The notes beneath the pieces are model-generated. The model had not been told where the DNA came from. It worked only from the letters and a program-made list of their open reading frames with translations, and did not search any database. A stretch of 64,000 nucleotides of DNA from a virus, in IMG/VR virus record IMGVR_UViG_3300046171_000231, positions 171,762 to 235,761 of that record, one strand, 5' to 3'. Below are positions 61,644-64,000 of this stretch, piece after piece. The translations under genes were made by a program, and so were the position numbers. Position 1 is the stretch's first letter; the number at the start of each line of letters is the position of its first letter.

Positions 61644-61797
61644 GTCTTCGCTTGATTTCGTGTTTGGCAAGTGCTAGTCTTTGGTTCTCTTCTTCAGTGT
61701 TGAGAAGTTCCATTATACTTAATGCACGTATCATGTTACGTAACCCGACCATCTCCATGCGACGCACGTAACCCGCCTGATTATAGGTGTCGATCAC
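61630..61797 (-). CDS. Small hypothetical protein (55 aa), GTG start
   Basis: Read from a GTG at 61795-61797 that overlaps the previous stop: MIDTYNQAGYVRRMEMVGLR, NMIRALSIMELLNTEEENQR, LALAKHEIKRRRASS. It is a helical, basic-ended protein. The stop falls inside palindrome copy 4. No family recognised. Support is the coupling and the clean helical composition. Confidence 0.5.
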   Translation of the reverse strand: MIDTYNQAGYVRRMEMVGLRNMIRALSIMELLNTEEENQRLALAKHEIKRRRASS

Positions 61798-61934
61798 TTC
61801 ATCACCTCATCAACTAGGTTATCGTAAGTTTGAATGTCCCAACCTTTCTGCTCTGGGACTTCCATTTCGTATGCGAACATGACTAGTTCTTGTAGGTAGT
61901 CTAGTTGCGATTGTGTCAATGTTAGTTGTCTCAT
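61794..61934 (-). CDS. Small hypothetical protein (46 aa)
   Basis: MRQLTLTQSQLDYLQELVMF then AYEMEVPEQKGWDIQTYDNL and VDEVMK. It has an extended -10 box (TGCTATAAT, with TATAAT at 61957-61962). The upstream region carries an inverted pair of the TCTCGACTAGA repeat instead of a normal -35 box, so this gene may be controlled by the factor that binds that repeat. Function unknown. Confidence 0.55.
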   Translation of the reverse strand: MRQLTLTQSQLDYLQELVMFAYEMEVPEQKGWDIQTYDNLVDEVMK

Positions 61935-61956: not shown

Positions 61957-62012
61957 ATTATAGCATGTGTGTCTAGTCGAGATTGTTAAGACATGCTTAA
62001 GTCTCGACTAGA
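61957..62012. promoter_or_regulatory. Control region with inverted TCTCGACTAGA pair
   Basis: TCTAGTCGAGA (61972-61982) and TCTCGACTAGA (62002-62012) form a perfect 11-bp inverted repeat separated by 19 bases; TTAAG and CTTAA inside extend it. The TATAAT box of the 46-residue gene is at 61957-61962. On the plus strand the hairpin is followed within three bases by TTTTTTT, so it can also act as a plus-strand terminator. Confidence 0.6.
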
Positions 62013-63360: not shown

Positions 63361-63421
63361 ATAACAAAAACAAGAGTCTGGGGTAGGACTGATAGAAAAC
63401 CTTCGCCACTCCCCGAGCTCT
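63361..63421 (+). ncRNA. Putative small structured RNA B
   Basis: Outer stem AGAG (63373-63376) with CTCT (63418-63421) and inner stem GGGG (63380-63383) with CCCC (63411-63414); the loop holds AGGACTGATAGAAAACCT. The 3' element CACTCCCC (63407-63414) and the general layout match RNA A. No T-run terminator follows, so the 3' end is uncertain. Not a known RNA class to me. Confidence 0.45.
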
Positions 63422-63489
63422 GAAATAATAACTGTAACCTTCTGTAATATTTGGGATGGATCTTATCGCAATCCAGCTGCCCCGTCAAC

Positions 63490-63666
63490 TTAAGTTGTGC
63501 CACTTCGGATACTGTCCACTGGCACCCCGTTCTCTAGCAATTTCGTGTTAGAATGGATAAACTCATCGGGAAAAGAGTTTATGCTTTTCGCCCAATCAAT
63601 TTTTTCGACCTTCAGGTCATCCCAACATTCGATGTCTAGCGTGACTGTGTACACACGCTTATGCAT
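63490..63666 (-). CDS. Small hypothetical protein (58 aa)
   Basis: Chosen start MHKRVYTVTLDIECWDDLKV at 63666; an upstream extension to 63744 would be rich in His/Ile/Tyr and is unlikely. It continues EKIDWAKSINSFPDEFIHSN and KLLENGVPVDSIRSGTT. The 'VTLDIECWDDL--E-IDW' pattern is a small phage family of unknown role. Palindrome copy 8 lies within its last codons. Confidence 0.6.
   Translation of the reverse strand: MHKRVYTVTLDIECWDDLKVEKIDWAKSINSFPDEFIHSNTKLLENGVPVDSIRSGTT
63497..63519. repeat. Palindrome family, copy 8 (degenerate)
   Basis: Arms GTGCCACTT and ACTGTCCAC around CGGAT; lies inside the 3' end of the gene at 63490-63666 and is the least perfect copy. Confidence 0.6.
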
Positions 63667-64000
63667 GATAATGTGTATCTCGAAGTGTATGTACATATGA
63701 TAGCACACATCTAGATGACGTGTCAAGTATATGAGTATATGCACACATCTCGACTAGATGATATGATGTGCGGGTGTCTCGACTAGATTCATATTCACAT
63801 ACAGTATATGAGATGATGAATGATGATGAGAGTCTCGACTAGACTTATTATATGTGTGATATATCTCGACTAGCTTCTATGAGAATTATGAGTATCTCGA
63901 CTAGGAAAAATTATCAGACCTCGACTAGTTTTTATGTCAGGATTCTCAGAAATTTATGCCCGTGATGTTGACAAATCGCCCGTTCGATGCTACGCTCGCT
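63667..64000. other. Non-coding region at the window edge with repeat array
   Basis: No convincing protein gene in 334 bases. It contains the TCTCGACTAGA array and an ATCTAGAT palindrome near 63709; the last 70 bases could be the 3' end of a minus-strand gene that continues outside the window. Confidence 0.55.
63748..63928 (+). repeat. Array of six direct TCTCGACTAGA repeats (iteron-like)
   Basis: Copies start at 63748, 63777, 63833, 63864, 63895 and 63919; the first three are exact over 11 bp, the next two over TCTCGACTAG, and the last over CTCGACTAG. Starts are 29, 56, 31, 31 and 24 bases apart. A partial TCTCGA occurs at 63678-63683. Spacers are AT-rich and unrelated, so this is not CRISPR. 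The same 11-mer occurs as an inverted pair at 61972-62012. Confidence 0.85.

Follow-up and report, generated by a model that had tools for sequence, protein, structure and literature searches.

The right-hand edge of the window (the whole 64,000-nucleotide stretch analysed here) carries an array of six copies of a short word, set between two divergent promoter-like sequences, A and B. The array is a real and conserved control element, apparently undescribed, of one branch of the marine T4-type cyanophages. We think it reasonably probable that it serves as a multi-operator site for a putative phage regulator, which would repress the leftward promoter A and probably stimulate the rightward promoter B.

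The window forms the last 64 kb of a viral record of 235,761 bases. For a 20-kb piece, the closest cultured matches were the Prochlorococcus phages P-SSM2 and P-SSM5, and a P-SSM2 match was obtained for 189 of the 306 ORFs compared, mostly in collinear order; judged by this similarity, the source is a P-SSM2-like T4-type cyanomyovirus. The two ends of the record share a 610-b stretch (window 63391–64000), 97.4% identical between them, and the circle closes, with sequence variation, at the array. The features discussed are collected in the table.

Table. Positions of the array, promoters and neighbouring genes in the window
Feature	Coordinates	Strand	Remarks
AbrB/MazE-fold protein, 57 aa	56868..57041	-	in the leftward block beyond promoter A; fold supported
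ORF, 46 aa (MRQLTLTQSQLDYLQ...)	61794..61934	-	read from the extended -10 promoter; conserved with P-RSM6
Extended -10 promoter TGCTATAAT	61957..61965	-	adjoins the second site pair
Second site pair, inverted, 30 b apart	61972..62012		upstream of another leftward promoter
58-aa gene, family phrog_12516	63490..63666	-	read from promoter A
Promoter A	63697..63726	-	TTGACA, 18-b spacer, TATCAT; spacer holds a degenerate ATCTAGAT site
Array of six CTCGACTAG sites	63748..63929	+	kept in L097, L087, L072, L036, L120 and L052
Promoter B	63968..63996	+	TTGACA (63968-63973), 17-b spacer, TACGCT (63991-63996)

The 13-bp site and its distribution

The invariant part of the repeat is the 9-bp core CTCGACTAG, whose six copies on the + strand start at 63749, 63778, 63834, 63865, 63896 and 63920, at intervals of 29, 56, 31, 31 and 24 b. 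This confirms the preliminary description, which had placed six same-direction copies in ∼180 b at the right edge. The repeated word is likewise real, but not at the 11-bp length first given to it, as the full 11-mer TCTCGACTAGA is exact in only three of the copies, with one mismatch in two and two in the last. The array had also been said to lie in AT-rich non-coding DNA; from about 63667 to the window end the DNA is indeed AT-rich and holds no convincing gene, but 82 bases to the left of the array a genuine small gene begins. Elsewhere in the window CTCGACTAG occurs only as the inverted pair at 61972 and 62002, 1.75 kb away, which had been correctly named (at ∼1.7 kb) as the only other copies.

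The whole record holds 14 CTCGACTAG cores, six of them at record positions 359–538. Because the first and last 610 b overlap, these six are the same array, and the circular genome therefore has eight copies, the array's six plus the inverted pair, against ∼0.2 expected per strand. The possibility raised at the outset, that the word is common genome-wide at chance frequency, is thus excluded. One other 9-mer in the genome reaches six copies per 200 b, CCATTACCA, with six copies within ∼126 b at record positions ∼137440–137566.

The core lies within a 13-bp near-palindrome, ATCTCGAC(T/G)AGAT, and a tally of the flanks of 195 distinct copies gave A-T-CTCGACTAG-A-T-T. A fully symmetric variant, CTCGACGAG, is present in the same clusters, so that the site has dyad symmetry; sites bound by dimeric proteins usually have this shape. 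The preferred spacings between neighbouring sites are 24–26, 30–33 and 40–44 b. Helical phasing of the sites was considered and rejected, as the spacings show no clean 10.5-b period. Site orientation and spacing differ among phages.

Two spaced copies of the word were found in at least 118 stretches when 2.9 million viral contigs were scanned, and the stricter 13-bp spaced-pair pattern in 94 stretches of the same collection. Since a scan of 84,980 bacterial and archaeal genomes with the stricter pattern gave only one match (in Mycolicibacterium, about what chance would give by our estimate), a host regulon is disfavoured. The viral loci collected with at least three clustered 13-bp sites number 173. 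Six close relatives (table) keep this array together with its flanks. In P-SSM2 a site cluster lies at 66,031–66,168, within ∼1 kb of DNA for which a single small ORF is annotated; when both maps are rotated to the array, its position coincides with the one seen here. Clusters at the same location in relatives, which the preliminary description had named as one part of decisive support, are thus present in P-SSM2 and in six closer contigs. Twelve other classic cyanomyoviruses, including Syn9 and S-PM2, have at most one stray copy of the word each. Most large array-bearing contigs carry a single cluster, with several within ∼5 kb in G006 and G007. In G006, two sites (G006:C1:122348-122389) lie upstream of what appears, by eye, to be a tRNA-Leu gene. 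Among the matches listed in a search of the open full-text literature, no cyanophage description of CTCGACTAG was found, in agreement with the earlier statement that no described cyanophage element with this word was known.

Divergent promoters and their neighbouring genes

The array fills the gap between the divergent sigma70-type promoter-like sequences A, reading leftward, and B, reading rightward. Promoter B is TTGACA-N17-TACGCTCGCTAA, and is followed by a conserved CGCTAA that continues beyond the window end. Its core was found in 64 viral-contig stretches, with the P-SSM2 copy at 65922–65958, and 58 of the 62 distinct copies have sites no more than 300 b upstream. Promoter A of many relatives has an intact site inside its spacer (P-SSM2, for example, reads TTGACAATCTCGACTAGATCTGGTATAAT), so that sites overlap the promoter core at fixed positions in relatives, while the corresponding site of the window's own promoter A is degenerate.

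The positions of the sites relative to promoters were counted over 86 distinct near-consensus promoters of the cluster loci that have a site within 250 b, each distinct sequence being counted once. In 13 of these promoters a site starts exactly 16 b before the −10, within the spacer, and in 15 it starts exactly 6 b past the first base of the −10, where the average offset has 0.73; the counts are not independent, and probabilities attached to the offsets ignore the kinship of the phages. In terms of sequence position, the −16 and +6 offsets are two classical repressor positions. The combination TTGACATCTCGACKAG-N7-TATAAT occurs in 32 viral-contig stretches, and in none for a scrambled control. 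When promoters were shifted locally at random, a weak control compared with the sharper test of exact offsets, in-spacer sites had a mean of 7.9 and a maximum of 16, against 18 observed.

Two small families keep close company with the sites. Family phrog_12516, to which the 58-aa gene belongs, is present in 119 of the 173 cluster loci at a median of ∼170 bases from the sites. The other is a peptide found in 112 loci, whose ORF overlaps the sites, which stands ahead of the phrog_12516 gene in many relatives, and of which many copies end LAYRHYA. One or both are beside the sites in 143 of the 173 loci, and the products of both are acidic. Such tight company of genes and sites would say what the array controls and not what binds it. 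The phrog_12516 protein gave a confident structural model with no fold match.

In ∼110 loci (L010, L014 and L016 among them) the frame of the acidic peptide reads CTCGACGAG sites as Leu-Asp-Glu, and in L109, L024 and L105 the 9-mer lies in apparent coding repeats. We nevertheless give practically no credence to the array as a by-product of coding repeats or of chance: for the window this is refuted, as the array is non-coding here and its word is in large excess over the expected number, and exact promoter offsets are kept across phages.

The inverted pair is also associated with a promoter, and a pair at ∼2 kb from the array is found in L097, L087, L072 and L036 as well. A terminator at 61972–62012 was considered and rejected, because its T-run and the genes occupy opposite strands (+ and −, respectively), and because the pair adjoins a promoter. 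Between the inverted sites (∼61987–62001) there is a CTTA-N7-CTTA, the pattern of a cyanobacterial Pho box, which is kept in four relatives; control of this promoter by host PhoB is possible. The P-RSM6 homologue of the 46-aa ORF lies at 142601–142712, in a stretch without an annotated feature.

We propose that early in infection host RNA polymerase would read promoter A, which we take for an early promoter. A putative phage-encoded, probably dimeric DNA-binding protein would accumulate and fill the six sites, and its binding would shut off promoter A and with it the small early phrog_12516 gene. From its upstream positions the regulator would probably also help polymerase at promoter B, whose −10 is weak. 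The sites with their clustering and conservation, the divergent promoter-like sequences and the exact offsets in relatives are observed features. Binding by a protein, the phage origin of that protein, the early use and repression of A, and the activation of B are steps that we infer, the last being the weakest.

Several features support the reading of the array as operators: the exact −16 and +6 offsets, the 32 stretches against none for the scramble and the location between divergent A and B; the upstream sites of nearly all B promoters and the promoter at the second pair; and the association with the two small families together with the shared map position in P-SSM2. Of the roles first suggested for the array, a multi-operator upstream region is the one borne out, in that the array lies between divergent promoters and has exact operator offsets in relatives. 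On the other side, promoter A of the window has an 18-b spacer and a degenerate site, so that the offsets come from relatives; no recognised repressor was among the families listed in Pfam scans of 196 ORFs; genomes mostly have a single cluster, and so fewer sites than would be expected of a global regulator; and in SynMITS9220M01 and Sf-CH5 both promoter B and the phrog_12516 gene are retained although CTCGACTAG sites are absent there.

A single locus per genome in most records would also suit a packaging or partition site, another of the roles first suggested. We rate this as a very remote prospect and found no support for it, since it leaves the promoter-locked offsets unexplained, no partition-type ATPase was noticed nearby, and T4-type phages package by the headful with no array of this kind.

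Candidate binders and the DNA beyond promoter B

Pfam scans of the 196 ORFs of the genome gave no recognised repressor or clear DNA-binding candidate among the best 25 families per scan. The 57-aa AbrB/MazE-fold protein is present in 49 of the 173 cluster loci, and is a weak candidate for the regulator because of its net charge of −11 and its imperfect co-occurrence with the sites, no convincing match being found in the array-bearing G005 and G006. A search by gene content left a single family present in all seven cluster-bearing genomes and none of the five cluster-free ones; this was a long lysine-rich protein, rejected as unlikely to be a site-specific repressor.

GIY-YIG ORFs lie near the cluster in 52 of the 173 loci, and a GIY-YIG endonuclease ORF is directly downstream of promoter B in L012, L013, L108, L030, L038 and L065 and in L068, L101, L213, L209, L217 and L226. 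In these dozen relatives, B thus probably functions as the promoter of a gene. The proximity could also mean that the endonuclease itself binds the sites, as its operator or as the recognition site for homing, an explanation that we regard as most improbable given that the majority of cluster loci, those of this genome and P-SSM2 among them, lack such a gene at the site, and that sites are found at promoter A, away from the endonuclease.

In 39 of 52 loci, against 2.4 expected, the least stable 120-bp segment of the locus is found 20–400 b past promoter B, and the genes on either side of B are on the opposite strand. RNAalifold applied to 56 sequences downstream of B predicted no conserved structure, and Rfam gave no match below B; a structured non-coding RNA at this promoter was thus rejected. 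An origin of the T4 oriF/oriG type would account for such an arrangement: the transcript from B would form an R-loop in the meltable DNA and prime replication, and the array would be the site of the activator. T4 oriF and oriG require an activator-dependent promoter and an AT-rich unwinding element (PMC3016281). The prevalence of one cluster per genome also fits an origin, as do the absence in SynMITS9220M01 of any genome region less stable than the DNA beyond B, and the presence of only one such region each in Sf-CH5 and G004, the latter with tandem TCTTTATAAGG repeats beyond B. Against this, 27 other regions are less stable in this genome and 44 in P-SSM2, and long non-coding DNA is AT-rich anyway. 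Furthermore, the GIY-YIG ORFs, close by in ∼50 loci and directly after B in a dozen, indicate that B can be an ordinary promoter, and the sites inside promoter A are left unexplained. We regard an R-loop origin at B as rather doubtful, and keep it as a live rival or addition to the reading as operators. The GC skew, which had been suggested as a check for an origin, was uninformative: it follows gene orientation only. The replication origin proposed earlier retains the mostly single cluster per genome and the meltable DNA past B, but gains nothing from skew, and no initiator for it was recognised among the families listed for the scanned ORFs.

Other elements were seen downstream of promoter B. 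GATTCTCAAT/ATTGAGAATC-type dyads are present in L210, L217, L222, L228, L229 and others, and 10 of 56 loci, against 0.04 expected, carry TTGATTCTCAA or the complementary sequence. L206 and L211 have three DnaA-type boxes (TTTTCCACA) each; DnaA boxes are enriched overall after promoter B, but as the enrichment comes from these two loci only, it was rejected as a sign of an origin, and no DnaA boxes were found near the array in this genome or in P-SSM2. The boxes, and the adjacency of array and meltable DNA, would be expected if the sites were classical iterons, bound by a phage initiator that opens the AT-rich DNA, with host DnaA taking part in some lineages. This we consider improbable, as the orientation and spacing of the sites vary among phages, the boxes are confined to two loci, and no such initiator was recognised among the families listed for the 196 scanned ORFs.

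Significance and comparison with known systems

Multi-operator arrays set between divergent promoters are a known kind of element. Here the novelty lies in the word, in its pairing with a conserved promoter that has meltable DNA beyond it, and in a putative binder not recognised among the families listed in the Pfam scans. It is a tentative possibility that the functions considered above are combined, and that one regulator, of a family not recognised as DNA-binding, loads the array, stops the early promoter and fires B, whose transcript opens the easiest-melting DNA and starts replication without MotA. If so, the early switch would be tied to origin firing without MotA. These phages lack T4 motA, asiA and alt, no middle promoter was found in P-SSM2, and early/middle control has been called unresolved (PMC2984593). 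The conserved word offers a direct handle, with a site for pull-down, two named promoters and a map position of 66.0 kb in P-SSM2. If an origin is also present, it would be the first mapped for P-SSM2-type cyanophages; to our knowledge none has been mapped so far.

Like the iteron origins of plasmids and phages, such as lambda ori and P1 oriR, the array is a same-direction repeated word beside AT-rich DNA. It differs in that sites of relatives overlap promoter cores, orientation and spacing vary, and a cognate initiator was not found. The Pho and NtcA boxes of cyanobacterial type in cyanophages are also short words upstream of promoters (PMC3037559, PMC10976474), but the word is another one, the sites form arrays, and spaced pairs are essentially absent from bacterial genomes. 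As a putative origin, the locus resembles T4 oriF and oriG in belonging to a T4-type phage and in having a promoter directed into meltable, A+T-rich DNA (PMC3016281). In place of the one MotA box of T4, it carries a whole array of dyad sites, and cyanomyoviruses are without motA homologues (PMC2984593).

In phage phi29, protein p4 binds several imperfect inverted-repeat sites between promoters, which overlap the early promoters and stand upstream of another, and this one protein represses the early ones and activates the other (PMC3100819). The likeness lies in the several dyad sites between promoters. The array sites, however, are 13 bp long and do not follow the p4 consensus CTTTTT-N15-AAAATG, they number up to about ten in cyanophage arrays, promoter B drives no conserved late operon, and no p4-like family was among those listed in the Pfam scans of the 196 ORFs. 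For the putative switch proposed here, the resemblance to phi29 p4 is one of logic and not of descent.
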